NCBI GenBank assembly: GCA_026636295.1
Contig: CP089460.1
Coordinates: forward strand, 682,001-746,000
Direction: 5' to 3'
DNA: 64,000 nt
Source of the DNA: Medakamo hakoo
Lineage: Eukaryota > Chlorophyta > Trebouxiophyceae > Coccomyxaceae
Position 1 is the first letter of the stretch. Each line of letters begins with the position of its first letter. The position numbers and the translations under genes are program-made. Under the pieces are notes generated by a model, which saw only the letters and a list, made by a program, of their open reading frames with translations, had not been told where the DNA came from and made no database searches. Below are positions 19,718 to 62,773 of the stretch, in pieces.

Positions 19718-22178
19718 ATGGATGTGCGCTGGGAGGCCGTGCGGCGAGGGAGTGGGACGCAGCGATCTCGCGAGCGAAAAAAAGAGCACACGCCGCATAC
19801 GCGCGCGCGCGCGCCGCTCTCTCCAGCCGCACCTCCTCGTCTCCCCCCACTGACCCCCCTCTCCGCGCGCGTCCCCGCCAACCACCTCCAGGCCACCCAC
19901 ACCCTCACCCGCCCGCGCTCCGAGTGCTTTCGGCGTGTCGTCTTGGACTGCCCACCCCCAGAAGTGCTGTGGGACTGTCGCCCGGATGAGGAGGCGGCGG
20001 CCGCGTTTGCGGCCGCGCGCGCAGGAGGCGGTGCGTCGCCCACCTGCACAGCCGCCGTCTCCGAGGCCGCCGTCCAGGCCGAGCCGGCCATGGCCGCGCA
20101 CGCCGTCTCCACGGAAGCGGCCGCAACAACAGCCGCGGCCGTCCAGCACGGCGAGGGAGACGGCGGCTGGCCGGAAGGCGTGGACGGCGGCGGCGACCCG
20201 GACGCGGCCGCGCGGTTTCGGCGGCGCGCGGAAGCGGCGCCAGCTTTCCTGCCGGGCCTGCGGTCCGCGGCGGCGGTGTTGGAGGCGGCGGTCCGGGCGG
20301 CGGCGGCGCTGCCTGTGTTTGAGGACGCCCTGGGGCGGTCGGAGGCCGGGTGGAGCCCAGGGCCGGTCCGGGCCGGCGCACCCGCCCCGCCTCCGCCTCC
20401 GCCGGCGCCGGCGGCCGGCGTCGTCGCGCCTCTCCCGCCGTCGGCCGCGGCGGCGGCGGCCGCGTCCGCCCTGGACGGCCCGCCCACCGCCTCCTCCGAC
20501 GGCCTGGCCCTGCTGCGCATTGCGGGGCTGCGTCCTCCCGGCCCCGCCGCCCGCACGCCCGTGTCGGCCGTGGCGTGGAGCCCGGACGGGTCGGCAAAGG
20601 TGAGAGAGATGGGTGGGTGGGGCGGGCGGGCGGATGGGTGAGAGCACAAAACACTCACGCCCCTCCACACACACACACACACACTGCGACGCCGACGACG
20701 ACAGGTCCTGGTCTCACACGCGCCCCTGGCGTACGTGCCTGCCGGGCAACCGTCCGGCCTCGCCCCACCGCCGTCCGCGTTCTGGTGGGATGCCGCCCGC
20801 CCCGCCGCCGGGCCGGTCGCCGCCTTTGCGCCGCCGCCCGGGTGCGGGGCGACGACCGGCATCGCGGCCGTCGCGCCCGCGCCCCGGGAGGCCGGCGTGT
20901 TTGTGGCCGGGCTGAGTGAGTGTTGGATTTGATGGGTGGGGGTGAGTGAGTGTGTGTGTGTGCGCGCGCGCCTCGCGTCCCGTCCCCGTCCCGCCTCACC
21001 CACCCACCCACCACCCCCACCCCCACCCCACAGCCGACGGCCGCCTCGCCCTCTTCGACGCGCGCACGCCCGGCAGTGCGCCCGTCGCCGTCTCCCCCGT
21101 CGACGCGTCCACCCACGGCGACGCGTACGTGTCGGCGGTCGTGTGGCCCGCGGGCAAGGCGGGCGGCGAGGTCGCGACCGCCGGCGCGGACGGCCTGGTG
21201 CGGTGGTGGGACGCGCGCGCGCTGGGCGGCGGCCACCTCGACGCGGCCGACCTGTGTCAGCCGCCGCCGCGGTTGGGCGGCGGCGGCGGCGGGGCCGGCG
21301 GCGCGCCGCCGCCGCCGGCCATTCCCTCTCCTGCCACGGTCCTGCTCTGCCCTGCTGCCGGCACGGCGCGCTTGCTCGTCGGCACCGCCGCCGGCACTGT
21401 TCTGCCCGTCGTCCGCGGTGCGCGCGCGCCCGCGCCGCGCGTCGGCGCGCCGCTCGCCACCGCCGCCGGGCCCGTGTCTGGCTTGGCGCCCGCCCACCCG
21501 GCCCTGGCCCGCGCGTACCTCGTTGCCGGAGAGTGGGCTCCGCGTGTGTGGAGCGAGGACGCCCGGTCGCCCGTGGCGGTCTGCCCAGAGCCGCCGGCCG
21601 GGTGGTGGGGCGGCAGCGGCGGCGGCGCCGCCCGCCCGCCCCGCCCGCGCTGCACGGCCGCCCGGTGGTCGGCCACCCGGCCGGCCGTCGTTTTTTCGGG
21701 AGGGGACGACGGTGTCGTCCGTGCGTACGACCTGCGCGCCCGTGGCGGTGGGGGCGGCGGTGCAAGTGCGCCGGACGACGCGCCGACGGCCGCCCCCGCG
21801 CCGTGGCTGGCCGCGACCGGCCGGCCAGTCGCGCCCGGCGGCGTGTCTGCCCTCGCCGCCCGCGCGTGCGGCCGCTTGCTGGCGGTCGGTTCGGCCGGAC
21901 AAGACGGGTCCGGCGCCAGTGTCGCGCTCGTCGAAGTCAGCGCCGCTTTGGCCACCCCGGACCCGGCCGAGCGGGCCGACGTCGCGGCGTTTCTGGAGCG
22001 TGAGGCGGGGCGGCTGCGCGCGGTCGCCGACCGCGCGGCGCGCGGCGCGCGCGCGGCGCGCGGCGCGCAGGGCATCGCCGCCGCCGCGGCCGCCCCGTTG
22101 CGCGCATCGCTGGGGCCCAGCCCTGAGGAAATGGCCGCCATCGAGCGCCGGTTCCTGGAGGAGGCGGGCCTGGCGTGA
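19718..22178 (+). CDS. DNAI2: axonemal outer-arm dynein intermediate chain 2 (DNAI2/IC69)
   Basis: Proposed exons are 19718..19723, 19892..20599, 20705..20915 and 21034..22178, giving 689 residues. The match to DNAI2 is clear: QHGEGDGGWPEGVDGGGDPD followed by ARFRRRAEAAPAF, WSPDGSAK, FWWDAARPAAGPVAAF, AGLTDGRLALFDART, VATAGADGLVRWWDARA, AYLVAGEWAPRVWSEDARS and VALVEVSAALATPDPAERAD. These form the N-terminal region, the WD repeats and the C-terminal helix. The protein is a structural chain of the flagellar outer dynein arm. The first exon is inferred: ATGGAT followed by GTGCGC, joined to ATHTLTRPRSECF, gives an N-terminus of the same length as algal IC69. Reading through from the same ATG without splicing would insert a low-quality 56-residue stretch. 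Confidence 0.9.
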
Positions 22179-22506
22179 CAACGGGGGCGCCCGGGGAGGG
22201 ATGGATGGAGGGAGGGAGGGGAGGAGGGGGTTGAAAAAAAAAAGCGAGTCATTCCGTCGGCTAACACCCACCACAAGCCACCTCCCCCGCCCGCCACGCC
22301 ACCCCGCACGCGCGCGGACTCGGCGCCCTCCTATAGGGCAAGAGACGCGTCACGCGTGCGCTGGTGCGCCTCCCCGGCCTAACACCCCCCTCCTCCCCCA
22401 CGCACACAACACAGCCTGCGCCTACAGCAGCCACCTCGCCCCTCTCTCCCCACGTGAGGTAAAAAAAAGAAAAGCGGTGAAAAGGGGAAGAAGCACGCGT
22501 GTGTCT
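22179..22506. other. convergent 3' intergenic region
   Basis: This region lies between the stop codons of DNAI2 and the RRM protein. It contains a gggagg-rich stretch and an A-run at about 22226-22243, and no exon. Confidence 0.4.
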
Positions 22507-24966
22507 TCAGTACGGGCGGTAGCGCTGCCCGCCGCCGCGCCGACCCGTCCCCGGCACGGGTGCCGGCGCTGCCGCCGTCGCCGACGTCGGCGCCGTGTAC
22601 GCGCCGGGCGCGGCGGCGGTGAAGGCGGCGGGCGCGCCCGGCGCGGCCGCACCTGCGCCACCGCTCCCACTCCCACCGCCGCCGCCCACGACGCCCCCAC
22701 CGCTCGAGTAATGGCCGGGCGACGGGGGCAGGGCGTACCCGTACGGCGTGGCACCGTACGCGCCGTACGCCGCATAGGGATTGGCGCCCGGGCCGCCGTG
22801 GTGGAAAGCCGCCGCGACGGCCGCCGCCGCGGCCGCTTGCTGGTGGTGCAGGTGGGCGGCGGCGGCGGCCGCGGCGGCCGCGTCCGGGTAGGGGTACCCG
22901 CCCGGCGGAGACGCGCCGCCCGCGCCCGCGCCGCCCATGGCAGCCGCGGCGGCGGCAGCTGCGGCGGCGGCGGCGGCGTGGGGCGTGGAGCCCGCGGCGG
23001 CGGGGCCGCCGCCACCGCCGCCGCCGCCACCGCCGGGCCACAACGCCAGGCCGCCCGCGCCCGCCGCCATGGCCGCGTACGCGGCGGCGGCCATGGCGGC
23101 CGGGTCGTACGGGCTGTAGCCCTGAGCTTGAAGGGCGGCGGCGGCGGCGGCGGCGGCGGCCGGCGAGGCGGGCGCGGTCGGCGGCGCGTGGCCGCCCCAG
23201 CCGGTGGCGGCGGCGGCGGCGGCCGCGGCCGCTGCGGCCGCGGCCGCCGCACCAAACGCGGCCGGCCGGCCGCCGGGCCGCGGCGTCGCGCACCGGTTGC
23301 ACACTTCCCGCCACCCGTAGTTCTGGTTGCGGCACTCCGGGATGGGGCACACCCAGTCCAAAGGCTTGCCCGTCGACGCCGCGGTGGCGGAGCCGGGCGG
23401 GAGCGGGCGGGTCGACGCGCCGCCGCGCGACCGGCCGCCGCCGCCCCCGCCTCCACCGCCGCCGCCATCGCTCCCGCTGCCGCCGCTGGTGGTCGTGGCG
23501 GCGGCGGCAGCCGCGGCAGCAGCCGCGGCGGCTGCCATGTCCTCCTTCCGCACGGCGCGCTTGAGTTCGACGGTGCGCCCGCCCAGGGCTTGGCGCGCGC
23601 CGCCCGCGAGCGCGGCCGCGACGCCCGCGTCGTCCGCGAACGTCACAAAGCCAAAGCCGCGCGGCGCGCCGTCGGCGGTGCGGACGAGGATGGCGTCGTC
23701 CAGGGCGCCGTACCGGGCGAAGTGGGAGCGGAAGGCGTCGTCGGTCACCTCGCCCGTGCCGCCGACAAAGACTTTGCGCGAGGCGGCGGCCGTGGCGGCG
23801 GGTGGTGCGGCCGCGGGCGGCGGGTGCGGGTGTGGCGCCGCCGCCGCGGCCGTCGGCGGCGAGCTGCCCAGCGCCAGGCGGTCCGCGCTCGCGTTCCTGT
23901 GTTCGGCAGCCAGGGCGGCCGTCGGCGGCGGCGGGGCGGGCGCCTTGGGGATGGCGGCCTTGGCTTCCACGGCCTTGCCGTCGATGGCGTGGTCGCCGTG
24001 CTGGTGTGAGTGGGGTGAGGTGTGGGGAGGGGTGAGGTGTGGGGTGTCTTTTTTTTTTGCCTTGCGCCCCGAGCCGCGTGGGGGAGGCCGCGCGCGCGAG
24101 GAGCGAGGCGGAAAAAAATCAACGCCCCGCCGCGGCCGGCGCCTGCGATCGCGGGCCACACTGCCTGGTGTCTGAGCCCGCCTGGCCCGTGCGCGGGCTC
24201 CGACGCTGGAATGCGGGAGCGTGAAGCGTGGGCAGGGGCCGGGACGCGGCCCCCTTCGGCAGCCGAGCGGCCGCATGCGTTCCTGCCGCGCCCCACGGAA
24301 CCAAAAAAAATAAAAACCGCCCGCCCGCGCCCAATTTGGCCCGCGTCCCACGGCCGCAGGCCCTCCACACGCCAAGGACCAACTCACCGCCAGGAACGAC
24401 ACAGCGGCCGCCGGGTCGTCAAACGTCACAAACCCAAAGCCGCGCCCTTCCATGACGACCGCGTCGGCGAGGCTGCCCCACGCGCTGGCGTACGCCCGCA
24501 GGCCGGGCGTGGACGCGGAGGAGGGCAGGCCGCCGATGAAGACCTTGCCGGTCGAAGGAGCGGTGGCGGGCGGCGGCGCAGGGTCGTCGTCGGCGTCGGG
24601 CTGGTTGAGCGCGGGGAGAGGCGTGCGGTCGTGAGGTTTTTTTGTGCACGGGCCCCGCGCGCGCGCACGAGCGGTGGCGGAGGCACGAAGAGGGAACACG
24701 ACGCCGCGCGGGCCCGACCCCACCCACACCCACCCACGCACCTCGCCGTCAGCGGGCGCGGGCCGGTCGTCCGCCCCGCCCGCGTCCGTCGTGTTGGCCG
24801 TGTCCCCGCCGGACGTGTCGCCGCCGTCGGCCGCAGGCGCGTCGAGGCATTGGCGCGCCGGCGAGCCCGGCTCGCTCGGCGGCGGGGCCTTGACCGCGTC
24901 GGCGCCGCCGCCGTCCACGGCCGCGGCCGGGGCCGGGGCCGACTCGGCGTCAGGCCCGGCCGTCAT
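22507..24966 (-). CDS. RNA-binding protein: two RRMs plus RanBP2-type zinc finger
   Basis: Exons complement(24742..24966), (24388..24600) and (22507..24000) give 643 residues. RRM1 runs from KVFIGGLPSSASTPGLRAY through GFGFVTFDDPAAA and is completed after the second intron by HAIDGKAVEAKAA. RRM2 has RKVFVGGTGEVTDDAFRSHF and RGFGFVTFADDAG. A zinc finger follows: WVCPIPECRNQNYGWREVCN, then RCATPRP, with the C-x4-C-x3-N-x6-C-x2-C spacing of RanBP2 fingers. The rest is Ala/Gly/Tyr/Pro-rich and disordered. The layout resembles hnRNP A/Musashi-like proteins with an added single-stranded-RNA-binding finger, such as FUS-type fingers. Its likely role is pre-mRNA processing or translational control. 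Its promoter is shared with the ABC1 kinase gene. Confidence 0.88.
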   Translation of the reverse strand: MTAGPDAESAPAPAAAVDGGGADAVKAPPPSEPGSPARQCLDAPAADGGDTSGGDTANTTDAGGADDRPAPADGEVRGWVWVGSGPRGVVFPLRASATARARARGPCTKKPHDRTPLPALNQPDADDDPAPPPATAPSTGKVFIGGLPSSASTPGLRAYASAWGSLADAVVMEGRGFGFVTFDDPAAAVSFLAVSWSLACGGPAAVGRGPNWARAGGFYFFWFRGARQERMRPLGCRRGPRPGPCPRFTLPHSSVGARARARRAQTPGSVARDRRRRPRRGVDFFPPRSSRARPPPRGSGRKAKKKDTPHLTPPHTSPHSHQHGDHAIDGKAVEAKAAIPKAPAPPPPTAALAAEHRNASADRLALGSSPPTAAAAAPHPHPPPAAAPPAATAAASRKVFVGGTGEVTDDAFRSHFARYGALDDAILVRTADGAPRGFGFVTFADDAGVAAALAGGARQALGGRTVELKRAVRKEDMAAAAAAAAAAAAATTTSGGSGSDGGGGGGGGGGGRSRGGASTRPLPPGSATAASTGKPLDWVCPIPECRNQNYGWREVCNRCATPRPGGRPAAFGAAAAAAAAAAAAAAATGWGGHAPPTAPASPAAAAAAAAALQAQGYSPYDPAAMAAAAYAAMAAGAGGLALWPGGGGGGGGGGPAAAGSTPHAAAAAAAAAAAAAMGGAGAGGASPPGGYPYPDAAAAAAAAAHLHHQQAAAAAAVAAAFHHGGPGANPYAAYGAYGATPYGYALPPSPGHYSSGGGVVGGGGGSGSGGAGAAAPGAPAAFTAAAPGAYTAPTSATAAAPAPVPGTGRRGGGQRYRPY

Positions 24967-25162
24967 GCGGGGGGCGAGATCGATGCGCGCGCGCGCGCAC
25001 GTGTGTGTGTGGGGAGGGTGGCGCGGACCGGGAGCACGCGCCCGGAACGCGGGTGTGGGGGGCGAGGGACTGCTCTCTGCTCTGGCCTGGCCGCCCCAGT
25101 GCGTCTTTTTTTTTCTTTTTGAGCGACAGGCGAGTGTGCGTGTGTGTGTGTCCCGCCTGCAC

Positions 25163-26554
25163 ATGTCCGCCAGGCTCCTGCTGCGGTTCAGCCCGCTGGC
25201 CGCGGCTGCCGCAGGCATCCCCGTCCTGGGCGGCGCGGCGGCGTATGCGTCCGACCCGGAAGCCGCGCGCGTCGCGGCCGCTGTGCCGGCTCGTTTAGCT
25301 CGCGCCGTCGCGACGGCGACCGCCATCGTCGCAGGTGGGTGTGGAATGCGCGTGTGGATGGAGGGGGATGTGGGGCGCTCGCCTGCGTGCCTTGATTGGT
25401 CAGGACGAAGGCGGGCCCGGCCACCGGGGGCCGGTGCGCATTGCTTTTCGGTGCTGTCTCTTGCCGCGCCGCGCCGCGCCGCGCGCACACCCCCCACACC
25501 GACCACCCGACCGCACACCCCTTCCTCACCGACCACCGCCCGCCCACACCACCTCCGTCCGCCCGTCCCTCAAGACTACAAGCGCACCGCGGCCGCGGCC
25601 GCGGCCGACCCGTCCTCGGCCGCCGCCCTGAACGCGGCCGCCCACATCCGGGGCGCCGCCCGCCTGCGCGACCTGTGCCACGGTGCGTGTCCCCTTTGCG
25701 TTTTTTTTTCTTGTGCGTGTTTCCACCCATGCCACGCGACCGACGAAAGAAGCACCGCCAGGCAGCCCGCGGACCCGCGCACACGATCGGGCTGTCCAGG
25801 TCTCACCCCTCCCCCCCAAAAAACAAAACGCACAGCCAACGGCGGCGTCTACGTCAAGCTCGGCCAGCACGTCGCGACGCTCGACCACCTGCTGCCGTCC
25901 CAGTACGTGCTGACGATGCGGGCGTCCATGCTGGACGCGTGCCCGCCCTCGCCGCCCGCGGACGTGGAGGCCGTCATCCGGTCCGAGCTGGGCGCGCCGC
26001 CGCAGCAGCTGTGGGCGAGCTTTGACCCGTCGCCCGTCGCCGTCGCGTCGTTGGCCCAGGTCCACCGCGCGGTCACGCACGACGGCCGCCCGCTCGCCAT
26101 CAAAGTCCAGCACCGGGGGCTGAGGGAGGCGTGCGCGGCCGACATCGCCACCGTCGCCGCCCTGGTCGACGCCGCGCACTGGCTGTTCCCGGATTTTGAC
26201 CTGTCGTGGCTGGTGCGGGAGGTGCGGGACAACCTGCCCAAGGAGCTCGACTTCCGGCACGAGGCCGCCAACGCGGCCCGGTGCGCGGCCAACCTGGCGT
26301 CGCCGTCCTCGCGCGTCAGGGGGCGGGTGCGCGTGCCCGACCCGGCGCCCGAGTACTCGACGGGGCGGGTGCTGGCCATGGAATGGATCGACGGCGCGCC
26401 CGTGACCGACCGGGCGGGCGTCGTCGCGGCGGGCGTGCGCCCGGCCGACGTCGCCTGGCTGGTCGCCGAAACGTTCATGGAAATGACGTTCACGCACGGC
26501 TTTGTGCACTGCGACCCGCATGGAGGCAACCTGCTGGTGCGGCGGGTCAACAGA

Positions 26555-26598
<44 letters not shown>

Positions 26599-27331: not shown

Positions 27332-27502
27332 TTTTTTTTTTTGCCTTTTGTCTGTCTAGGGTTGCGTCTTTTCTTTTCTTGCCGTAGATTTATACGGGGG
27401 GCCGTAGGAGGCGCAGCCGCGTGTGTAGCTCTCAACTCTTTCCAAATCCTGCGGGCTGCGTGCGCGAATGGGTTTTCTAACAACAACGCCGTCTCTTCTT
27501 CT

Positions 27503-35691: not shown

Positions 35692-36803
35692 TCAGTACGA
35701 GGACACGCCGTAGATCGGCCCCCGAATGCGCCGGGCCAGCTGCAGGTCCTTGGGCATGATGGTGACCCGCCGCGCGTGGATGGCACACAGGTTGGTGTCC
35801 TCGAACAGGTGGACGATGAAGTCTTCCGTGGCTTCTTGCAGGGCGAGCAGGGCTTCGGCCGTCCAGCGGAAGGGTTCAGGGGCGACGCCGTTTGTGATTT
35901 CGCGGGCCTGACGTGGCGGTGGAGGGGGGGGGGGGGGGGAGGTGTGAGAGAGAGGCGGGTGGCCGCACCACCCACCCACCTGCGTCGTGGCCACGCCGCT
36001 GGAAAGGCGCCACCAAAGACGCCACCAAAACCAAGGACGCCACCAAAACCAAGCTCGACGTGCCCGCCAGGCCTGGCGCGGCGTCTTTGGTCTTGATCTC
36101 GCGCACGCGACCCCCCCTCCCGAACCCGCCCCCTCCACCCCCACTCCCACCCCCAAAACAAAAACACGCACCAGGCGCGCAAAGGGCAGCTTGCGGATGA
36201 GCAGCTCCGTCGACCGCTGGTACTTGCGGATTTCGCGCAGGGCGACGGTGCCCGGGCGGTACCGGCGCTTGCCGGCGGCGGCGGCGGACTTGTAGCCTGG
36301 GGGTGGGGTGGACGGGAGGAGGGGAGGCAAGGTGGGAGGGAGGCCCGCATGCTGCGATATAGAGAGGGCACAGGCGGGACGCGGATGGCACAGCCCTGCG
36401 CGCTTTGCCGGCCACTTTTCTCTCATGGCCGAGGCGCACACGCCTCTTGAACTCAGGCCGGCGCGACAAAACGAGGTGCCGGCGCCCGAAACCACTCCCT
36501 CCCCGCTCGCATGCACATCCCGCGCTCGCCGCCGCGACGTTGAAACTTTCAACTCACCGACAGCGACGCCGCGGCCCGTCGGCCCGTACCCGGGCCCAGG
36601 CCGCGCTTTCAGCGGGCTGCGCCGGGCTGGGGTCGGGCGGGGCGGGCCGGCCAGGGTCTGTTGGAGGGTGGAGGTGGGAGGCAGGCGGCGTGAACGAATT
36701 GGTTGTTGAAAAAAAAATGACGGCAGCCGCGAGTGGAGGGAGGAGTCGCGCGCTGGGCAGCACACACGACACCGCCCAACCGCACCTGTGTGGCGCGGGC
36801 CAT
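35692..36803 (-). CDS. histone H3 variant, CENP-A/CenH3-like
   Basis: Exons complement(36786..36803), (36558..36657), (36172..36296) and (35692..35907) give 152 residues. The start MARATQTLAGP mimics H3 but the tail then diverges completely (Pro/Arg/Gly rich). The core has [34 protein letters not shown] and [20 protein letters not shown], then [20 protein letters not shown] and RIRG. Loop 1 ([16 protein letters not shown]) is one residue longer than in canonical H3 and has Trp in place of Gln-Ser, as in CENP-A. ALQEA-x-x-x-F-x-VHLFED also matches CenH3 rather than H3 (YLVGLFED). There is a C-terminal extension PIYGVSSY. The most likely role is the centromeric nucleosome. A divergent replacement H3 remains possible. 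Confidence 0.87.
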
Positions 36804-37058: not shown

Positions 37059-40000
37059 TCACTCTTTAAACCACTCCCCCGCCCCCGCCGCCGCCCCCGG
37101 CGGCACGCGCACCACCCACCCTTCCGCCTCCGCCCGCGCCAGCAGCGCCCCCAACAGCGGCACCCGCCCCGCCGTCCGCGGGTCGCCCACCACGACCAGC
37201 TTCTCACGGGCGCGCGTGATGGCCACGTTGACACGGCGCCAATCAGCGAGCGGGCGGCCAGGCTCGCGCCGGGCGTTGGACCGGACGAGGGAGAGGAGGA
37301 CGGCGGCCCGGTCGCGGCCCTGGCACTGGTCGACGGTGAGGGCCTCGACGCCCGCCCAGCCGGCGGTTGCGGACGCCCGGCCCAGGAGGCCGACCTGGGC
37401 GCGGTACGGGGAGACGGCGACCGCGTCGTCGGCGCGCACGCCCGCGGCGAGCAGGCCGCGCGCGACGGCCCCCAACAGGGCCGCCTCGCCCGGGTTTGCG
37501 GCCGTGTCGCCCGCGCGCGCTTCGGCGCAGGTCAGGGGTGGTGGCGGCGCGCCGTCGTCGTCGCCGGCGGCCGGCGCGGCCGGCGCCGCGTCCAGCTCCG
37601 TCGACAGCACCACCACAGGCCGGGTCGGGTCCAGCGCCGCAGCCAGCCACGCCGGCATGGGCGGCGCACCGCCTCCACCACCGCCGCCGGCCGTCTCCCA
37701 CGCCGGGCGGGGCAGCGAGCGCGCCGCGACGCTCGGATGGCCCGCCACCAACGACCCGCAGTAAACCAGCGCGTTGGCCAGCTCCTGCACCGCGCCCGGC
37801 ATGCGGTACTGTCGCCGCAGCACGGTGGTGGCTTGCGGGTGGGCTTCGCACAAACGGCGGAAGAGAGACTCGGACAGCGACCCCGCGGCCGGGTCGGTCG
37901 TCGCACCGTCGGCGGCGGTGCCCGCCCGGTCCGACGCGGCCAGCGGCGGCAGCTGGTAGTGGTCGCCGACCAGGACAAAGGACCGGGCGCGCAGGAGGGC
38001 GCCCAGCACGGCGGGCAAGGCCATCTGTTGGGTGGGGTGGGTGGTGGGGTGGGGCGTTGGAGCCGGCCCAGCCGTGTGGGGGAGGCACACCCGCCCTCGC
38101 CTCCCGACCACCCCTCTCCACCCCCCCATCCCCCACCCACGCCACACCGCCTCACCTGGCCCGCCTCGTCCACGAAGACGACGTCGAACCGCCCGCCCGC
38201 CTTCAGCAGGGCGTGCTCGCAGCCCAACACCGTCGCGCCCACCACAGGCGCGGCCGTCGCGGCGGCCAACAGGTCGGCCGACCCGCCACCACCACCACCC
38301 TCGCCACCGCCGGGCAAAAACTGGCGGACGCCCGGGTGCACGCCCGCCGGCCGGCCCACGCGCAGCATGCCGGCCACGCCCAGGTCGGCCAGGCGCAGCA
38401 TGACGTTGTCCACGGCCGCGTTGGTGTAGGAAGAGACGAGCACGCGGCACCCGCACGACGCGGCGCACGCGACGGCCGCCACAATCGCGGCCGTCTTGCC
38501 CGTCCCCGGCAGGCCGAGGATGAGGGCGTAGTCCCGCGCCCGCAGCGCCGCGTCCACGGCGGCCCGTTGGTCGGGGTTCAGCGCGCCCAGGGCGGCCGCC
38601 AGGGCAGCGGGCGGGACGGGGCAGGAGGCCGGCAGTGGCGCCGCGCCGGCGTGGCTGCCAGCCCCGCCGACCTCGCCCCCGGCCGCGAGCGTCGCAGCCA
38701 GGCGGGCTTCGACGGCGGCCAGCCCGCGGCCGCGGCCGCCGCCGCCCGCAGCGGGCGGGGACAGGTCGACGACAAGCCGGCGCAGGCGAGCAGCATCCGC
38801 GGCAGAGACGGCCGCGGCCATGGCGGGCGCCGACCCGTGCCCGCCGGGCTTGCCGGCGCCCAGCCCATTGCCCCACCCCGCACGAGAAAACAGGGCCAGC
38901 AACGACCGGCGTTGGCGCACAAACGCCGTGGACGGCTCGTCCCGGTCAACGCGCCAGGTGCCGGGTGGGAGGCCGGCCGCCAAATCGACGCGCAAGGGCC
39001 GGTCCGTGCGGACGACGAGCGAGGAGGGCGAGGCGGCCAGGACCGACCCGCGGGACACGCACGGGTGCGCGCCGTCCAGGCCGACGACCGCCATGTCGCC
39101 CGGCGCCAGGCCGACTTCATCCAGTGGGGGTGGGGGTGGGGGAGCTGGGGGCTGCTGCCCCTCGCCGCCGCCCCCGTCTTGATGCACGCGCTCAAAGGTG
39201 TGCACCCAGCCGTCGTTGTCGTCGCCCGCCGGGACGGTGGCCACCAATGCCAACCCCGCCGCCGCGCGGCCGCGCGCCTGGCGCTCGGCCGCGGGCAGCG
39301 TCCAGATTTCGGCGCGGCGCGCCCCACCCGCCGCTTCTTCTTCGTCCAACAAGCGCAGCCAGTGCGCTAAGAATGAGGCGTGGCGCGGGGTGAGGTGGGC
39401 GGTCAAGGATTCGAACGCGCCGGGCGCCAAGCCAGCGCTCGCCGCCGTCCCGCCCTCAACAGCAGCGTGCACGGCCGCGCACGCGCCGGCTTGGAAGCAG
39501 CCACCGCACGCGCGCGGGTCACGCAGCATGGGCGCGTCCACGACCAGGCGGCCGCCGTCGGCGCCGCGGGCGGACGGGCGTGGGACGACGGCGGCGGCCA
39601 AGGCGTTTCGCACGGTGACCAGGGATGCGGCCTCGCCCGGGTGGGCCGGGACGGCGTCCGGGACGGGGTCGCCGCTGTACCAGAGCAGGCCGGCGGGGGG
39701 GCCTGGGGCACCGTACCGCGCGGCCGCCAGGGCCAGGTACAGCGACACCTGCGCCCGGTGCGAGCCGTGGCGCTTGCCCGTCTTGAACTCGAGCGGCGCC
39801 GCGGCCGTCGACGAGGTGTGGGGGCGGTCGCGGCGCGCGGCGGCCGCGGCCTGCTGCCAGCCAACCGAGGCATTGCCGGCCTGCCCGCCCGGCGAGTAGT
39901 GGTACTCGACCGCGACCGTCGCGTCCAGCACGCCTTTCACGCCCACAGACGGCGCCCAGACCACCTCTTCCACGTCGCGCACGGATTGGATGGCCGCGGT

Positions 40001-42411
40001 GGCGGGCGCGGACGGGCCGCACCCTCCGCGCACGGGCGCGGGTGGTGGCGGGTGGGGGGGGTGGGCAGACGTGTTGGGCGCCGCCCCGCCGCCGAGGTAC
40101 GTCCGCACAAAGCCGGCGATGGCCGGCACCGCGCCGCGGGCCGCGTCGGACGCGGCCTTTTCATCCAGGCCCACCTCGATGAGGCGGTCGGGCGCGCGGG
40201 CCGCGGCCGCGTCGGCGGCAGCTTCCAGGCGGGCCAGGGTCGCCGCCTCGCCCGCGCCCGCGCTGTGGCCGTCGCCGTCCGTCAGGGCGGCGGCCAAGAC
40301 TTCGTGGGCCAGCGTGCCGACGGCGGCGGCCAGGCCGGGCTCCCCCCCGAACTTTTCTTCCAGGGCGGCCTGGCGCACGCACCGCAGGGCGGACGCGACG
40401 CGCGTGCCGGACAGCAGCAGGTCGGGGTGCGTGACCAGGACACCCGACCCCTCGTCCAGCACCGCCGCCGGCTCGCCGCACGGGCCGCCGCCGGGACGGG
40501 GGTCGAGGCGGGTGGGGACGCCCGCCCTCGGCGGTGAGGGCGGCGCACCATCGCCGCAGCCGGGTGCGGCGGCGGCGGCGCCGCCGTCCAGTAGCCCGGT
40601 CAGCGCGACCACGTCGCCCGGCTCCAGGCCCGCGCCGTCGGCCCAGGGGCCGCGCATGCGCAGCACCAGCCCGGACGCTCCATCCTCCGCCAGCAAGCGG
40701 GCGTCCGTGCCGGCGTGGGCGGCCCAGACTTCCAGGACGACGTACCGGTCCGGGCGGGCGGACGGGCGGGCGCGTTGGGGTGGGGGTGGGGGTGGTGGGA
40801 CGGTTGGCGCGGCGACCGCCGAGCCCTCTCCTTCATCCCCCACCACCACCGTCGGCGGCGCCGGGCGCACTGGAGCAGGCGCGTCGACCTCGCCCGTTGC
40901 GGGCTTGGGCGGACCGGCCTCTTCTCCAGCAGCAGCCCGCGCGGCCGCAGCAGCCCGGGCGGCAGCGGCGGCGGCGGCTTCGTCAGCGGCCGCCAGGAGT
41001 GCGTCAAGGTCGGCGCCATCGTCGCCCGGCCCGCCGCCTCCGCCGCCGTCGTCGTACGCCGCCACGGCCGCCGCAAACTCGGCTTCTAAAGCGGCAGCCC
41101 GACGGGCGGCGGAGGTGGGCGTGGGCGCGGGCGCGGCGGGCGCTGCGGGCGGGCCCACGGTCTCCTGCGACGGCAGCGGCGGCGGCGGCGGCGCGAGTGG
41201 TTGGGAGGCAGGCGCTGCAGGCGGCGCCTCGTCCCCGCCTCCGCCCCCGACCATGGCCTCCACCCGCTCCAGCAGGGACAGCAGGGCCGCTTGGCGGGAG
41301 CCGCGCACGACAGCAGCCGCGGCGGCGGCAGCCGCGGCACCGCCCAGCGATGGCCGGGCCGGGCGGCCACGACCAGCGGCCGACGGTGGCAACGGCGGCC
41401 GGCCGCCCGACCCACCGCTGCCCAGGCTGGACCTGCCCAACCGCCCGGCGGTGGGCGTGGCCGTGCCGGGTGTGGCGGCCTGGGCGGCCAGGGCGGCGGC
41501 CGTGGCGGCGGCGGCCCGCCCGCCGAGCGACGACGGCGCGGGCGACGCGGCCGTGCCGGCCGCGCTGCTGCTGCCGCCGCCGCCAGGCAGCCCGCCCAAC
41601 AGCTCTTCCAGCAGGGCGTCCGCCGCGTCTTCATCGCCCGCCAGCAAGGCGCCGGACCCGCGGCGGTCCCCTGGCGCGAGCGGGCCGTGCGGGACGGCGT
41701 TGGAAGGCCCGCCACCGCCGCCGCCCAGGCGGGCCGCGACGGCCGCGGCCGCTCGGCGCTGGCGCAGCGCCGCGGTCGTGGGCGTGGCGGCGGCAGGGCG
41801 GGCCAGCCCGGCCAGCACGGCAGGCGGCAAACTACTCGCCTGTTGCTGCTGCTGCTGCTGGGACAGGAGGCTGGGCGAGGGCGCGTACACGACCCGGGCG
41901 TCGTCGTCGCGGCCGTCGTCGCCGGGTGAGGCCGCCGCAGCGGGCGCCGGGGCGGGCGCGACGCCCGCGCCCACCCGCCGGCGCTTTGGCGCGGCGTCTG
42001 GGCGGGGTTGGGACGGCGCCTGTGGTTCGGCCGCCGTGCCTGCCTGCGGCTGGGAGGACGGGCCGGCGCCCAGTTCAGCCAGCGGCGGGCGCGGGTCAGC
42101 CGCAGGCGGAGGAGGCGGCGGCGCGGGTCGGGCCGGCAGCGCAGCCGGCGCTGCAGCAGCTGCCGCCTTGGCGACGCCCGCCTTGGCTCCACCTCCGCCA
42201 CCACCCCGCCGGTCAAAGAAGGAGGTGATGGCCTGGGCCGCCGGCACGGGCTTGGGCTCGGGTTTCTTGGCCTGTGGGTGTGTGGAAAGGGGGGGCGAGA
42301 TTCGTGAGCGCATTCGGTTCGCGCGCGACAGACCCCACGCGCCCGCGGTTTTTTGGCTTTTTTGTCCTGCGCGCCCTCAAGGCAGGCTTCCCACCTCCGC
42401 ACCTTGCCCAT
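37059..42411 (-). CDS. DNA2: DNA2-type nuclease-helicase
   Basis: Exons complement(42403..42411), (38156..42271) and (37059..38024) give 1,696 residues. Exon 1 encodes only MGK. Near residue 15 lies AITSFFDRR, a PCNA-box-like motif lacking the usual Gln. A disordered Ala/Pro/Gly region of about 450 residues follows. The nuclease domain has GVKGVLDATVAVEYHY and PLEFKTGKRHGSHRAQVSLY (D, E-x-K). The Fe-S cysteines are C in RCVRQAALEEKF and C-x2-C-x5-C in RACGGCFQAGACAA. The SF1 helicase has LNPDQRAAVDAAL, Walker A ILGLPGTGKTAAI, VVFVDEAGQMALP, VGDHYQLPPL, RQYRMPGAVQELAN and DQCQGRDRAAVLLSLVR. It acts in Okazaki-fragment processing and end resection. The Fe-S cysteine and helicase motifs look intact. 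Confidence 0.93.
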
Positions 42412-47026: not shown

Positions 47027-47064
<38 letters not shown>

Positions 47065-53557: not shown

Positions 53558-54519
53558 ATGTCCTCCCTCGCGTTCCGGTCGTCCATGACCGCCACGCCGC
53601 TGACGGTGAGTGGGGAGTGGCGCGCGTCCGCTCGCGGCGCCCGCGCGCGCGGGGGAGGGGGGAGAGACACTCGTGCCTGGTCGTTTTGTGGCCTGTGTGG
53701 CGCCGCATCGACGTCGGAGGACGGCGGAACGAGCGTCGCGGGGGTCTGAACGCGGTACTAGCCTCTGTGTTTCCGTCGCCCGCACATCGAGGCGTCCTGC
53801 GACCAGAGCAGCTGGATGAGTGGACGTGGCGGGACGCGCCATCCATGGCGGGGTGCCCGCGACGCCGTTCCCCCCTGCGCTCCGCCGGCGGCTGCCCCCC
53901 CCCGACGCAGCGCTCTCCCTCACACCACCCCACACCCCTCCCTTTCTCACACATGCACAGGCCACGCCGCGGGCGGGCACGTCTTCGCGCGGCCCCCTGG
54001 TCGTGGAGGCTAAGGTGGCGGTGCGTTTGCAAGGGCGGGAGGCAGGCAGGCGTCGAAAGAAGAAGACGCGCCGCAACCTAGCCGTCGACGTCGGGCGCCG
54101 ACCCCCTCAACCCCCCCTCTCACACACACACCGCCCTCTCCCCCTGCGCGCCCCCGCTCCCACTCCAACAAACAGATCCGCTTCCAGCGCTTTGGCCGGA
54201 AGAAGTCGCCCTTCTACCGCCTGGTCGCCATCGACTCCCGCAGCCGCCGGGAAGGCCGCCCACTCGAGGTGTGTTGTGTTTTTGCCCCCCCCCCCCCCCC
54301 CCCTCCCTGGCTGCGCTCCCCATCCCATCCATCCGCTTCATCTCACGCCCTCCCCATCCCCAATCCCACCCATTCCAGCGCCTGGGCTTCTACGACCCGC
54401 TGCGCAAGGAGACCAACCTGAACGCGCCCGCCATCAAGAAGTGGCTGTCCCTGGGCGCCCAGCCGTCTGAGACGGTGGGCCGCCTGCTGTCTAAGGCGAT
54501 GATCACGGCGGACGAATGA
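53558..54519 (+). CDS. rps16: organellar ribosomal protein bS16
   Basis: Exons 53558..53605, 53961..54020, 54176..54268 and 54379..54519 give 113 residues. The first two exons encode a Ser/Thr/Arg-rich leader typical of organelle import ([16 protein letters not shown]...). The mature protein has [56 protein letters not shown] and ETVGRLL, all hallmarks of bS16. It is a 30S subunit protein of plastid or mitochondrial ribosomes. Which organelle is not decidable from the leader alone. Intron 3 carries a run of about 19 C residues at 54285-54303. Confidence 0.93.
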
Positions 54520-57898: not shown

Positions 57899-60800
57899 TC
57901 ACCCGCCCAGCCCGCACACCCCCGCCACGCCCGCCCCGTCCAGGCCCCACTCGCCCGGCCGCGCGCACACCACCCCGCTGCCACGAGCCACCCGCCGCCC
58001 AGCCCGCGGGTCATGGGCAGTGGCCCGCGCCACGGCCGACGCCGCGGCGGACGCGGCGGCGGCGGCCGCCGCGACGCCAGGGTCCACCACCAGCGCGTCG
58101 CCGCCGCCGCCCGGGTCGCCGCCCGGCCCCGACGACTCCACGCCGAAGGACAGGCCGTACGTGTCGTGGGACGCGCCCAGGACGACGGCCTGCCCCGCGG
58201 TGACGGGCACCGGCGCCACCCATTGCAGCGCCTGCCCCCACGACGGGCGGCGGCCGGCGGCGTGCGCCGCGTGCGGCGAGGTGGACAGGCGCACGGCGCC
58301 GCCGCTCCCTCCGCCCGGTCCGCCGCCGCCGCCGCCGCCGCCCTCCCCCAAGCACAGGTCAAACCAAAACAGGACGGCCGTCACCGTGCCGTCGGCCAGG
58401 GCGGGCGCCGCCAGCGTCGCGGTCCCGGGCGTCAGCAAGTCTGCCGGGGCCGCGCCCGCAAAGTCCCAGCCAAACGCGCGGACGGGGCGCGTCAGCGGCC
58501 GCCACGGCAGGCCCAGGCCCGGGGCGCCGCCGCCGCCGCTCCCTGCCCCCAGCTCCACGGCTTCGTACTCGGCCCGCGCGCGGAAGGGGCGCGTGAACGC
58601 CCAGGTGAGGGGGGGCGAGGGCGGGCCCGGCAGCGCCGTGGGCGGCGGCGCGCTGACCTCGACCGCCTGCGCCCAGACGTCGGCCCGGCACGGGACGACG
58701 GCGCCGCCCGGCCGCACCAGGCCGCGGGCCTTGGCGGCCGCCACGATGTGCAAGGCGCCCTCGCCGATCAGCCCGGCGTCAAACACCTCAAAGACCAGGG
58801 CGTCGGCTGGGCGCGGGAGGGTGGGCGGCGACCCCGGCGGGCGGGTCGGGTCGGGCGGCGCTGAGGGCGCGCCGCCGCCCGCGCCGCCATCCCCGCCGGC
58901 CGTCGCGCGGCGGACGTCGCCCGCGACGACGGCGACGGTGCGGGCCCAGCCCGTGGCGGCGACCGTGCCCGCCGCGGCCGCCGCCAGCGCGGGGCAGGAC
59001 TCCACGCACGTCACGCGCGCCGCGCCCGCCCGCGCGGCGAGCAGCCCCAGCAAGCCCGTGCCCGCGCCCGCGTCCAGGACGTGCGGCCGGTCGCCGCCGG
59101 GGCCGCGCAGGGTGTGCAGGACGCGCGTCAGGGCGGCGTCGTACGCCGCCGCCCGCCCGCCGTCCGCCACCATGTCCCAGTGCCAGCGCGGCAGCCAGGC
59201 GGGCGGGAAGGGGGAGGGGAGCGGGGGCGGGACGGGCGGCAGGGCTGGGCAGGCGGGCGCGCCGCCCGTGTCGCTGCTGCCGCCGCCGCCGCCCGCCGCG
59301 TCCGCCGCCGTCACGACCACGTGGTCCCGGTCCCACCGCACGCGCACGGACAGCGCCGCTTCTCCGGCAGGGCTGCGGGCCAGCGCCGCGCCGACGGGGC
59401 ACGGCCCGCCGTGCGAGAGCCAGTGGAGGCCGAGGCCCAGGGAGGGCGCCGCGTGGGGGGCGGCGGCGGACGCGGCGGCGGCGTCGCCGCCTTCGTGCCC
59501 CACCGGCGACAGGGCGACGCCGGCGCCCAGGTCCAGCACCGACCAGGTGACCAGGGCGGCGGGCGCGCCGCCGCCGACCGCGACCGCGGCCGCAGGGTCG
59601 GGCGGGAGGGCGACGCGGACGGCGTGCGTGGCGTCACCCTCCCAGGCAGCGGCGGCGCCTCCGTCGCCGGCGCCGCCCGCGACGGCCAGGGCAGACGTGC
59701 CGGCGCAGGCGGCCGCCCCGCCCGCCCGCTCCACCGCCGCCCGGGCCCGGGCCGTGACGTCGACCTCCGCCAGGGTGAAGGGCGCCGACAGGGGGATGAG
59801 GCCGGGCGGCAGGGCGCCGACCCACCCGCCGCCACCACCACCGGCGCCGGCGTCCAGCCTGTCCGCCGCCCAGCCCCACCGAAAGGCGTCCAGGGCAGGT
59901 CCCACAGGCATGCCCGCCGGCGCGTGCGGGTCGGGCAGGGCGGGCGTGGGGCCGCCCCCGCCCGCCCACCGCCCGCCGCGCGCGTCGGCCACGACGGCCG
60001 CGCGCACGGTCACCCGGCCGGGCAGGGCGACGACGTCGGGGGACAGGAGCCCCCGCGCGGCGGCGGCGTCCAGGGCCGCCAGCGCACCCGCGCCCAGCGG
60101 CGTGTGGTCCCACAGGTCCGTCAGGACAAGGGACGCGGGCGCGGGGAGCGGCGTCGCGGCCGGGGACGCCTCGGCCGGCGGCCCGGGCGGCCGCAGGCCT
60201 GCAAAGCCCGCCGGTGCCAGGGCCGTCGTGGCGGTGGTGGCCGGCGTGCGTGAGCCGCCTTCCTCCAACCCGGCCGCCAGGAACCGGGTGGCCAGCGGGC
60301 CGGGCTCGGCCGCGACGACGGTGAGCAGCGGGGGGTGGGACGGCGCCGGGGCGCGAGCGCGCGCCGCGTGGCCCGCCACCGTCGCCGCCAGGACCAGCGC
60401 CGCCGGCCCGCCGCCCAAGCTCAGCGCCACGGCTGGGCCGGCAGTGCCGCCCGACACCAAGGCCTCCACCGCCGCGCCCACTCCCGCCGCCCAGCCACTC
60501 ATGCGCCCGCCGTCGGCCGCCGCCGCCGCGGCGCGCCGCACGCCGGCCAGGTCGCCCGCCGCCGCAGCCAAACCCGCGACCGTGCCCACGTCTGGCAGGG
60601 TCGAGGCCGCCGCGGTCTGGTCGGTTGCAGGGGCGCAGGAAGACGCGCACGAAGCCTGCGCGCCCACCGCCGCGGCGCGGAGCAGCGCGCCCGCGCGCAC
60701 CAGCCGGTCGCCCGGCACGCAGCCGGCCGGCCCGGCCCAGCCATACTCGGCCATGTCCCAGTCGGGGGCAGCGGCCGCGGACCGGAACTGGTGTGTCATG

Positions 60801-61457
60801 GCCGCGACGGTGGAGGCGGTGGCCGTCGAGCGCAGCGCGCGGGCCGCGGCGGAGGCGGTGAGAGCCGCGGCCGCGGCCGCGTCTGCAGCAGCAGCTGCGG
60901 CAGCACGCACGGCCGCGCCCGCCGCCCGCTCCACGGCTGGGTCGGCCTGGCCCTGCCGTGCAGCTAACCGGGCAGCCGTGCTGTACGACACGGCTGCGGC
61001 ACCCCAGTCCCGGCCTGCCGCGGCCGCCGCGCCCGCGCGAAAGTGGGCTTTCGGCCAGGCCGGCGCGAGGTGGGCCGCGCGCGCCGCCGCCGCCGCGGCG
61101 CCGCGTACGTCGCCTGCCTTCAGCAACGCGGCCGCCTGGTTGGAGGGTATGGCTGGGTCGTGTGGGTCGCCGGCAGCCGCCGACAGGTAGTGGTCGGCCG
61201 CGGCTGGATGAGTGGGTGGGGTGGGGTGAGAGGGGAGAGGGGAGGGGGGTGGGGGAGGGAGAGGGCGGGGCGGCCGTAACCGACCCCCCTCTCCCTGCAC
61301 GCTCCCACCGCATCACACCTCTGAACCGCCCCTCTTTAAACGCCGCATTCCCTTCGGCCCGGCACGCCACCACAGCCGCCGCGATGTCGTCCGGGTCGGC
61401 CAGGGCCAGGGCGGCGGCGGCGCAGGTGGGCGGGGAGGAAGGGTGGTGGATGGTCAT
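57899..61457 (-). CDS. TPR-containing protein arginine methyltransferase (PRMT9/PRMT7-like)
   Basis: Exons complement(61319..61457) and complement(57899..61203) give 1,147 residues. TPR repeats are at the N-terminus: ACRAEGNAAFKEGRFRAAAD, SNQAAALLKAGDVRGAAAAA and PAWPKAHFRAGAAAA. Two methyltransferase-like regions follow. The second is canonical: RWHWDMVADGGRAAAYDAAL, motif I VLDAGAGTGLLGLLAARAGA, VTCVES, and the double-E-like loop ALVFEVFDAGLIGEGALH, then GGAVVPCRADVWAQAVEV. The first keeps only remnants (AVALSLGGGPAALVL; LVLTDLWDHTPLGAGALAAL; LPGRVTVRAAVV) and looks inactive. A C-terminal beta-barrel (LQWVAPVPVTAGQAVVLGAS) closes it. TPR plus tandem domains match PRMT9, which methylates splicing factor SF3B2. 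Here the C-terminal copy, not the N-terminal one, has the intact motifs. Confidence 0.85.
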
Positions 61458-61655
61458 TTTGAGAGAGATGGAGGAGGTGTGTGTGTTGCGTTTTTCTTCT
61501 CGTGTAGAGGGAGGTGTGTGCAGGGAACGGGCTGCCGTCGCTTGTTCTTTTGCCTTGCACTCCCCAGGTCCTCCTCCTCTCTCCCTCTCTCTCAACTCTC
61601 ACTCTCACAGCCATGCGGCGCAATGACTCTCGCGTGGTCACCCCTCCCCTCCCTC

Positions 61656-61869
61656 TCACTTGGTCGGCGCCGGCTTGGTGTCCGCGGCGGCCGCGGCCGC
61701 CGTCGTCCCGGCGCCTCCTGCCGCAGGCGCCGGCGCCGCCGCGGCCGCCGCGCCAGCGCCCGCTTCGCTCTGGTACGACGGCGGCGCGACCAGGACGGGA
61801 GAGCCCAGGACGGGCCCGGGCGGCGTCGGGCTGTACCAGCCGTACTGCGCGGGCGAGGGCGTTGGGTAC

Positions 61870-61913
<44 letters not shown>

Positions 61914-62773
61914 GCCGCCGCCGGCAGCGAAGCCCATTTGGTACGTCGCGGCCTGGGCGGCGGCTTGAGCCTGGGCGGCCCGCATGTCTTGCATGAGGCC
62001 TGATGAGGCCGTGTGGGTGTTCGGGAGGGAGGGAGGGAGGAGGGAGGCAGGGGGTGAGGGTGGGTGGGGTCCGGGCGCGCTGGCGGTCGAGGCGGGGAGC
62101 TGGCCGCGCGAGCGGGCATGCCACCGCCACACTGAACGCCGACGCTCGCGCCCCTCCCTCCACTCCAGCCCCCTGTCCATTGCGTGCACCACCAAACCAA
62201 CGTACCGATCGTGCACATGGCGTGGATGACACCTGTGTCGCATGCATGGGTGGGGCGAAGAGGTGAGTGCAGGTGGATGGCACAACCTCGCGTGCCTGCT
62301 GATGCCTTTGCACACACACGCACGTTCCGACAGCCGCTGCGCGCCGTCGGAATCACAATAAACCGCCTCCACCCCCTAGCCAGGACATGTAACATGTCTG
62401 TGAGCTGGCGCCGGGAGGGAGGCGTGGCGCGCGTGCCCCGCCTCGCCGCATTCTTGGATGGTGGGATGGAGGCACCACACACGCCCGCGGCACCGACCCG
62501 GACACCCTTACCAGGAAACCAGCCGAGCATTGTGAACAGCACGTTGAACAGAATGGACGCCAGGTCACCGCCGGCCAGCGCCACGGCGACGGGCGGGAGG
62601 ATGAAGCACCACAACAGCGCGAGGACTGTGATGCACGGGTCGGGCGAGGCCGGGGTCGCGACCAAGACGGACGTCGGACCGGGCCCTACCGCATACGTCG
62701 GCATGGGCGGGGGCGCCGTGTTGCCGTACGCGGCCGACGTGCCGTCCGGTTTGATGGCGGCGGCGGAGGCCAT
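61656..62773 (-). CDS. PMP3/UPF0057-like small membrane protein with long tails
   Basis: Exons complement(62512..62773), (62206..62232) and (61656..61999) give 210 residues. The core has two membrane helices: CITVLALLWCFILPPVAVAL, then DLASILFNVLFTMLGWFPGV followed by IHAM. This is the PMP3/RCI2/Esi3 signature (LPP in helix 1, N-x-L-x-T-x-LG-x-x-PG-x-IHA in helix 2). These plasma-membrane proteolipids affect membrane potential and salt or cold tolerance. Family members are usually 52-75 residues. This one adds about 48 residues before and about 115 after (QDMRAAQAQAA, a 13-Gly run, Tyr/Pro-rich YPTPSPAQYGWYSPTPPG, Ala run). Such tailed forms occur in fungi and algae. It is head to head with an MFS gene. 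Confidence 0.88.

Follow-up and report, generated by a model that had tools for sequence, protein, structure and literature searches.

GC-rich human introns with weak, C-rich tracts are reported to use G-rich and C-rich intronic splicing enhancers (Murray et al., 2008; PMC2481429), and AC/GT introns of fish and lamprey are described as bridged by structure and independent of U2AF2 (Lin et al., 2016, as presented in PMC7404189). Strand asymmetries coupled to splicing were also described (Touchon et al., 2004, as cited in PMC10946897 and PMC10030826), and this pattern is stated, with reference to another paper, to be absent from human and mouse intronless genes (PMC10030826). The introns considered here were predicted in a window of 64,000 nt from the very GC-rich green alga Medakamo hakoo (GCA_026636295.1, contig CP089460.1, positions 682,001 to 746,000; 72.7% GC) and in a further 200 kb (C1). 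Like the human introns outlined in PMC2481429, they have a U-poor, C-rich acceptor tract, G-rich and C-rich intronic zones, and a U2AF65 in the same genome. However, in the human case only some introns are concerned and the G and C motifs lie upstream of the tract, whereas in M. hakoo about nine-tenths of the predicted introns are involved, the G zone lies on the donor side, U2AF65 is altered, and the enhancer role is presumed. With the fish and lamprey introns, as summarised in PMC7404189, they share opposite ends that are complementary in composition and an unusual 3′ end, but the arms are stretches of skewed composition and not matched repeats, and U2AF65 is present, though altered. Similar to the asymmetry of Touchon and co-workers, the skew is anchored at splice sites, as distance profiles show; unlike that asymmetry as it is represented in the citing papers, it changes sign within one intron, and the flanks of start and stop codons share the sign. 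No description of this skew pattern, or of the U2AF65 change discussed below, was found in the titles and abstract openings of the open-access papers listed.

Most predicted introns in this alga are G-rich first and C-rich last. Genes were predicted with a hidden-Markov gene finder; because its non-coding model is symmetric between the strands, a G-first intron could not be preferred over a C-first one. From 190 predicted introns, 184 of 60–700 nt were used (six fell outside this range), and 181 were available for skew after 10 nt had been trimmed from the donor side and 40 nt from the acceptor side, the halves of three more being too short. In the trimmed halves, mean GC skew was +0.222 (5′) and −0.240 (3′), and the 5′ half exceeded the 3′ half in 163 of the 181 introns (39/47 in the window, 124/134 in C1), the order recurring in every stretch sampled. 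The recurrent G-rich 5′ and C-rich 3′ halves, noted in the preliminary description from seven introns, are thus borne out, and the strand asymmetry is real. Pseudo-introns, GT..AG pairs of matched splice score from intergenic interiors, were nearly flat (+0.075/+0.007; 57% of 238 in G-first order). The order was kept with an order-0 variant of the non-coding model (162/179 introns) and in 47 of 52 introns from 20 loci outside the training stretches, seven of which had seeded the first codon table with their kinase exons; a bare GT/AG model gave it in 204 of 254 introns, with a weaker contrast (+0.172/−0.196). The skew is steepest at the intron ends: on the donor side, G makes up 0.47–0.49 of the first 20 nt and near balance is reached by 50 nt, and on the acceptor side, C is 0.56 at 10–30 nt from the acceptor and has faded by 100 nt. 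Pfam domains were also searched in 21 proteins selected for their length and composition; a domain crossed a junction in 12, five had a domain that crossed none, and four had no family. Among the 15 predicted junctions lying inside a domain of these 12 proteins, 13 introns showed the order (mean by hand, +0.16/−0.35).

The seven introns in which the asymmetry was first seen have untrimmed half skews of +0.33 to +0.80 (5′) and −0.19 to −0.95 (3′). Six were recovered at their exact boundaries, and the seventh, ABC1 intron 1, was placed at 25335–25574 (plus strand; +0.35/−0.54); the ABC1 domain lies downstream of its junction and provides no test of it. The two DNAI2 introns on the plus strand, at 20600–20704 (+0.71/−0.53) and 20916–21033 (+0.61/−0.74), each contain CTCAC, a candidate branch-point motif, at 20654–20658 (51 nt from the intron end, within the 30–60 nt at which the motif class peaks) and at 20995–20999 (in the C-rich zone), respectively. 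The remaining four are on the minus strand: CENP-A (H3-like) intron 3 (35908–36171; +0.48/−0.19), whose spliced protein matches histone H3 across the junction (PFARLAREI vs PFQRLVREI), DNA2 intron 2 (38025–38155; +0.80/−0.51), the PRMT9 intron (61204–61318; +0.33/−0.95), and PMP3 intron 2 (62000–62205; +0.39/−0.64), at whose junction the Pmp3 domain ends. In CENP-A intron 3 and DNA2 intron 2, C does not predominate in the trimmed inner 3′ half (+0.18 and +0.15, respectively), so the C zone is there limited to the last 40–50 nt. Counter-examples occur. The opposite order was found in seven of the 46 window introns of at least 92 nt, including ABC1 intron 2 (25683–25835, plus strand; trimmed halves −0.23/−0.08). 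The two exceptions among the domain-spanned junctions are the S16 intron (54269–54378, plus strand; −0.49/−0.82), which is C-rich throughout and spanned by the Ribosomal_S16 domain, and PMP3 intron 1 (62233–62511, minus strand; +0.02/+0.01), which is spanned by the Pmp3 domain and balanced, with only its last 40 nt C-rich (−0.62).

The acceptor tract is U-poor and C-rich: between −25 and −5, the 184 introns have C 0.54, A 0.226, and T 0.134, and TTTT occurs in the last 40 nt of 11 of them. The CTCAC motif emerged without any branch model in the gene finder; 108 of the 184 introns have it in their last 70 nt, with a peak 30–60 nt out. The C-rich tract, in which A exceeds U, begins about 40 nt upstream of the motif, is purest just 3′ of it (C 0.62–0.64 and G 0.08–0.10 over 12 nt), and ends at CAG; the start of the next exon is also C-skewed. 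CCCACCC was counted 46 times vs 30 in shuffles. As the tract is G-poor, weak RNA folding is predicted there, and compared with copies in which G and C were randomly exchanged, the weakening of the local fold was 9.1 kcal/mol for acceptors and 4.6 for ATGs, vs −0.4 for donors, 1.5 for stops, and 0.95 in mid-exon. Opening of the branch point by the upstream G zone was considered and rejected (unpaired 0.53 vs 0.57 when shuffled, p 0.20, and vs 0.44 in the reverse complement, p 0.056). On the other side of the intron, about 40 nt of G-rich RNA lie 3′ of the GTGAGT donor. GGG runs in the donor arms (308) are more numerous than in dinucleotide shuffles (280, sd 6) but not than in mononucleotide ones (322, sd 11), which points to weak selection on G runs over and above G content; GGGTGGG was found 25 times vs 11 in shuffles. 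Compensation of weak donors by G content was rejected, since donor strength and G content showed no trade-off (rho 0.00, p 0.99). Opening of the donor by the G zone was also rejected: in a partial transcript with 48 nt made, the donor was unpaired at 0.405 vs 0.341 in shuffles (p 2e-4; p 0.054 at 28 nt and 0.004 at 68 nt), a small effect with no counterpart in the full fold (0.306 vs 0.295).

U2AF65 prefers uridine-rich tracts. In the human protein, F262 is reported to stack on U3 and F304 on U4 (PMC7408900, PMC4786784). M. hakoo has a likely U2AF65 orthologue with RRM1, RRM2, and UHM in order, which aligns with algal, plant, and animal U2AF65 and carries FDVPPPGF, comparable to YWDVPPPGF of animal U2AF65 P0068; its TIGR01642 matches (model 169–279 and 301–508) each lie below the whole-protein cut-off. 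It differs in that the predicted protein has no RS-rich N-terminus and the RNP aromatics of RRM2 are lost, with S, T, and T at the positions of F262, Y302, and F304. The alignment had 109 rows: M. hakoo, four plant and animal proteins, and 104 proteins (P0001–P0009, P0131–P0225) chosen by the author from at least 121 distinct proteins among the matches listed, one listing giving 120 of 133. Three rows are gapped at the RRM2 motifs. The RNP2 aromatic at the F262 position is kept in 98 of the 106 scorable rows; P0213, P0217, and P0223, in which RNP1 reads non-aromatic, perhaps through misalignment, keep it and were counted as intact. The eight non-aromatic rows, M. hakoo and seven environmental proteins (P0001–P0007), are set apart by a branch supported at 99/98, whereas RRM2 is intact in Coccomyxa. 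In RRM1, the aromatics are kept in 101 of 101 rows. Judged from these sequences, the usual reader of U-rich intron ends has lost some of the surface with which it reads U. Against the reading proposed below, the RNP2 aromatic is retained in some high-GARP relatives, and a second U2AF-like protein of M. hakoo, with RRM1 and RRM2 intact, could still read U. Two U2 genes score above the Rfam cut-off and SF1 is present; a U1-like RNA reaches 58.1 bits, below the cut-off of 69.5.

With modest confidence, it is proposed that the intron consists of two independent signal zones, each anchored at one end, and not of matched partners, with G and C as their letters owing to a genome GC content of about 73%. 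The splicing steps are those we infer. The acceptor C tract would replace the U-rich polypyrimidine tract, and this open tract might be read by U2AF65 via the intact RRM1, a route suggested because the uridine-stacking aromatics of RRM2 are gone; the donor G zone would enhance splicing from within the intron, next to a strong U1 site, and base pairing between the zones, arising from composition, may shorten the distance between splice sites. Against this proposal stand the skew of the same sign at start and stop codons, which are not splice sites, and the fact that the introns are predictions, though 15 junctions fall inside Pfam domains. A more tentative idea, to which we give somewhat less than an even chance, is that a very GC-rich picoalgal lineage rewrote its 3′ splice-site code from U to C. 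The open C/A acceptor tract, the U2AF65 that retains RRM1 without the uridine-reading face of RRM2, the donor G zones, and the C zones at start codons would then be one solution for keeping signals readable at this composition. Extreme GC content and splice signals would here meet in one lineage, as introns without U tracts and a reader protein with matching lesions, which would make this small, culturable alga a natural experiment on the flexibility of 3′ splice-site recognition.

The complementarity of the two arms might be explained by pairing between them, joining donor and acceptor in the manner of the fish AC/GT introns that do without U2AF2. Predicted folds of 154 introns have 22.6 cross-intron pairs vs 11.5 in shuffled introns, a donor–acceptor graph distance of 24.6 vs 33.1, and 14.2 vs 20.9 exon–intron pairs. 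Shuffling within halves lowers the cross pairs to 20.0 (p 0.008), weakens the energy by 2.4 kcal/mol (p 4e-4), and raises the distance to 29.1 (p 0.011) and the exon–intron pairs to 18.1 (p 8e-6); the excess of T over A in 5′ arms and of A over T in 3′ arms also has the direction that pairing would want. However, the pairing of an intron's own arms is no stronger than that of arms exchanged among introns (−25.8 vs −25.4 kcal/mol; z −0.98, with 804 of 5000 permutations as low), hybrid introns do not differ in folding energy (p 0.96) or in cross pairs (p 0.62), and the skews of the two arms are uncorrelated within introns (rho −0.01, p 0.87; A/T unmatched, rho −0.07). Moreover, arms facing each other across an exon have a slight pairing advantage over own arms (residual −1.24 vs −0.42); pairing in that arrangement would favour exon skipping. 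Pairing as a selected trait is unsupported by these comparisons and is considered improbable; cross-intron pairing is predicted to follow from composition alone, with no intron-by-intron matching detected. Since composition was enough in the swap test, pairing should not be concluded from complementary intron ends. The idea of a shared splicing habit is therefore retained in part: the pattern recurs in all sampled stretches of a genome without U-rich acceptor tracts, whereas the arms as partners are unsupported. Complementary ends also look like the terminal inverted repeats of introner-like insertions, but the arms are not intron-specific complements, and blastn among the 184 introns (low complexity masked) gave no intron–intron match at 1e-5; an origin from such a repeat family has hardly any probability. 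RNA G-quadruplexes near the donor, also suggested in the preliminary description, could be the selected feature, with the C arm incidental. Of 184 sense 5′ halves, 35 contain a three-tetrad motif, against four 3′ halves; the 94 overlapping motifs in 50-nt donor arms exceed the counts in shuffles, whether dinucleotide (47, sd 11) or mononucleotide (61, sd 13); and the statement of the M. hakoo genome paper that G4 is abundant (PMC9871001) was counted in favour. However, with motifs in 35 of 184 halves, and in only 23 of 142 donor arms, the donor half of most introns has none, and the complementary C pattern is commoner (69/184 3′ halves); quadruplexes concern at most a minority of introns, and this reading as a whole is quite unlikely.

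That the gene finder or the splice motifs themselves pick G-rich starts and C-rich ends has some basis, as GT favours G-rich patches, the bare GT/AG model gave the weaker contrast, and the order is absent from two of the four domain-spanned introns of the window. Nevertheless, such a selection artefact has only a negligible chance given the nearly flat pseudo-introns, the order kept by the symmetric models, the order-0 variant, and the other loci, the branch motif that appeared unasked, the residue-exact H3 junction, and the ordered majority of domain-spanned junctions. A more serious alternative is a general gradient, at the level of DNA or transcript and not tied to splicing, in which the sense strand is C-rich before coding segments and G-rich after them; introns would inherit it because they are placed between two coding segments. 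Indeed, the skew is not confined to introns, as the flanks of ATGs and stops and fourfold sites share its sign; the preliminary description is silent on this same-sign skew at start and stop flanks and synonymous exon sites. The 25 nt that follow stops have a skew of +0.42 (99 genes), ATGs are preceded by one of −0.36 (101 genes), fourfold sites have −0.38 after acceptors, −0.26 after ATGs, and +0.32 before stops, and intergenic spacers of at least 60 nt run from G to C in 28/32 tandem, 24/32 convergent, and 31/34 divergent cases. The intron ends are, however, more extreme (+0.62, −0.72), fourfold sites before donors have no clear gradient (0.02–0.05), and predicted folding is weakened by C zones and not by G zones, so that the two signs do not act like products of a single process. 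The gradient on its own is therefore judged unlikely, though it keeps a real chance; as part of the two-zone proposal, a splice-specific component overlying a broader gradient, C before and G after coding segments, is somewhat probable. In small samples, single-exon genes show the flank skew as well, at +0.56 downstream of the stop in 16 genes and −0.35 upstream of the ATG in 14, and a gradient at fourfold sites was seen in 10 of 15 such genes.

Introns of Medakamo hakoo, a trebouxiophyte green alga of 72.7% GC (PMC9871001), run from a G-rich start to a C-rich end, as the preliminary description had claimed for several genes of the window. GC skew is +0.222 in trimmed 5′ halves and −0.240 in trimmed 3′ halves, the order being found in 163 of 181 predicted introns; along 20 bins (184 introns) it falls from +0.59 to −0.63 before rising again to −0.39 in the final bin, where CAG lies. 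The G-rich zone spans about 40 nt and the C-rich zone about 100 nt, and introns above 300 nt give +0.15, −0.05, and −0.31 by thirds. The suspected genome-wide habit also extends beyond the window (C9:682001-746000 of the 15.6-Mb, 16-contig assembly), with the order in 47/52 introns from 20 other loci, seven of which had supplied kinase exons for the first codon table. Splice-score-matched pseudo-introns in intergenic interiors reach only +0.075/+0.007 and 57% (238 pairs). Antisense pseudo-introns within introns show +0.26/+0.06 and the order in 72%, as expected if both strands read G-first.

The main text of the genome paper does not contain the words “intron,” “spliceosome,” or “U2AF” (PMC9871001), and the introns analyzed are predictions from a purpose-written Viterbi gene finder. 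Its codon model was seeded from kinase matches, its non-coding model was symmetrised under reverse complement, and retraining on the window plus C1:200001-400000 gave 103 genes with 190 introns and the consensus G/GTGAGT at donors and ACAG at acceptors. C stands at donor +2 in about 6% of trained-matrix donors, which suggests GC-AG introns. This strand-symmetric finder reproduced to the base the introns first read from the sequence alone, such as those of DNAI2 (20600-20704, 20916-21033), CENP-A (intron 3, 35908-36171), DNA2 (38025-38155), PRMT9 (61204-61318), and PMP3 (62000-62205). An order-0 non-coding model retains the order in 162/179 introns, and it is weaker without splice weights (204/254). 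Pfam domains cross 15 predicted junctions in 12 of the 21 spliced proteins scanned; the ABC1 domain crosses none. Spliced CENP-A also matches histone H3 across its intron-3 junction. Among these domain-spanned introns, 13/15 show the order on trimmed halves (mean by hand, +0.16/−0.35), while two of the window's four, PMP3 intron 1 and the S16 intron, do not. The finder fused CENP-A with DNA2 and put doubtful first exons on some genes.

One proposed purpose of the asymmetry was pairing between intron ends. This was not supported when duplex energies were calculated for all combinations of 40-nt donor and acceptor arms from 175 introns: own arms average −25.8 kcal/mol and permuted arms −25.4 (sd of permutation means, 0.41), with 804/5000 permutations as low. 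The skews of an intron's two arms are uncorrelated (rho −0.01), and in 151 introns both the energy (p 0.96) and the number of cross pairs (p 0.62) stayed unchanged when the 3′ half was exchanged for that of a length-matched intron. Arms on the two sides of an exon pair slightly above chance (residual −1.24, 78/5000 as low, 92 pairs), which own arms do not (−0.42, 813/5000). In predicted folds of 154 introns, real sequences have 22.6 cross pairs against 11.5 in shuffled cores, fewer exon–intron pairs, and more open acceptors (0.515 vs. 0.453), but composition alone suffices for such end-to-end folding. The best remaining evidence for pairing comes from predicted folds after shuffling inside each half, where cross pairs drop to 20.0 (p 0.008), donor–acceptor distance is 29.1 vs. 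24.6 in real introns (p 0.011), and exon–intron pairs stand at 18.1 (p 8e-6); a gradient inside each half may explain these losses. As to donor G-quadruplexes, the second suggestion, G4 patterns are in excess in a minority of donor arms (23/142); G4 is described as abundant in the genome (PMC9871001). Spaced runs such as GGGTGGG (25 against 11 expected) are likewise in excess in a minority, whereas G content largely accounts for donor G runs as such: GGG is counted 308 times, compared with 322 after mononucleotide and 280 after dinucleotide shuffling.

The third suggestion concerned the absence of U-rich acceptor tracts, and the tracts do have little T (0.134; A, 0.226). CTCAC lies within the last 70 nt of 108/184 introns, with a peak 30-60 nt from the acceptor, and C content is maximal directly after it (0.62-0.64). 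The motif would fit the GTAGTA branch-binding stretch usual in U2, present in both U2 genes above the cut-off; SF1-HH matches one gene. A U1-like gene (58.1 bits, under Rfam's 69.5) begins with the normal ACTTACCTG, read on the other strand. These snRNA genes cluster at C7:569910-576262, the U2 genes 2 kb apart, sharing about 125 identical nt from the start but differing towards the 3′ end, and the U1-like gene ~4 kb on. AAAAA is the top over-represented 5-mer in the last 60 nt of predicted introns (42 vs. 14 in dinucleotide shuffles). Compared with versions balanced by random G/C exchange, local predicted folding is weaker by 9.1 kcal/mol at acceptors, 4.6 at ATGs, −0.4 at donors, 1.5 at stops, and 0.95 in mid-exons; C zones are thus predicted to open the RNA and G zones are not.

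Two U2AF65-like genes were found. Protein A (L033:1123-2247) scores 157.7 bits against a solved U2AF65 chain and has good RRM1 and RRM2 domains, with no UHM seen in its open frame, and relatives in Coccomyxa, Chlorella, Micractinium, Chlamydomonas, Trebouxia, and other green algae, several just 250-300 aa long. Protein B (L034, spliced), with an FDVPPPGF stretch, RRM1, RRM2, and UHM, is the likely orthologue. RRM1 of U2AF65 tolerates C better than RRM2. In the aligned proteins, RRM1 aromatics are present in 101/101 scorable rows. In human RRM2, F262 stacks uridine 3 and F304 uridine 4 (PMC7408900; PMC4786784). The RRM2 RNP motifs of protein B are FAVSVTGL and PGTATVTF (in maize, DRIFVGGL and KGYAFCVY). 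The F262 position is aromatic in 98/106 scorable rows, those of Coccomyxa viridis and C. elongata among them, and non-aromatic in M. hakoo and seven environmental proteins, of which only P0001 shares with M. hakoo the loss of F304. These eight form one side of a branch (99/98 support) in a tree of 32 rows, where M. hakoo and P0001 have an unusual composition that the models do not accommodate. As a proxy for GC, the GARP/FYMINK ratio lies at 2.2-4.0 in the eight (median of 97 others, 1.53), though a few rows keeping the aromatic reach 3.2-3.5.

The intron pattern is read here as a pair of independent zones. At the acceptor, an open C/A tract would stand in for the U tract, and the G-rich donor zone may serve as an enhancer, as G-rich zones do in human GC-rich introns (PMC2481429). 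That a U-less tract goes with a worn RRM2, the most interesting and most testable point, is a correlation from one sequenced genome and relatives' proteins. A purely splicing-based account is opposed by skew outside introns. On the sense strand, the 25 nt that follow stops have a skew of +0.42 and the 25 nt leading up to ATGs one of −0.36; whole intergenic spacers run from G to C in every gene orientation. At fourfold-degenerate sites, the 20 nt downstream of acceptors give −0.38 (unchanged, −0.41, for introns also called by the order-0 model), weakening to about −0.08 at a distance of 160 nt; the values elsewhere are −0.26 after ATG, ~0 before donors, and +0.32 before stops. Coding segments therefore lie in a saw-tooth, C before and early, G late and after, with introns the steepest part; it needs a separate explanation, and a DNA-level cause may lie behind it.

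Two tRNA calls lie on the reverse strand of the window. An Rfam match (49.4 bits) at 5676-5873, not reported by ARAGORN, spends 198 bases on a 71-position model and would be a tRNA gene whose insert, at some 120 nt, is unusually long. The tRNA-Gly (gcc) called by ARAGORN at 41344-41420, absent from Rfam matches at gathering score, lies inside the long DNA2 reading frame and may be a false call.
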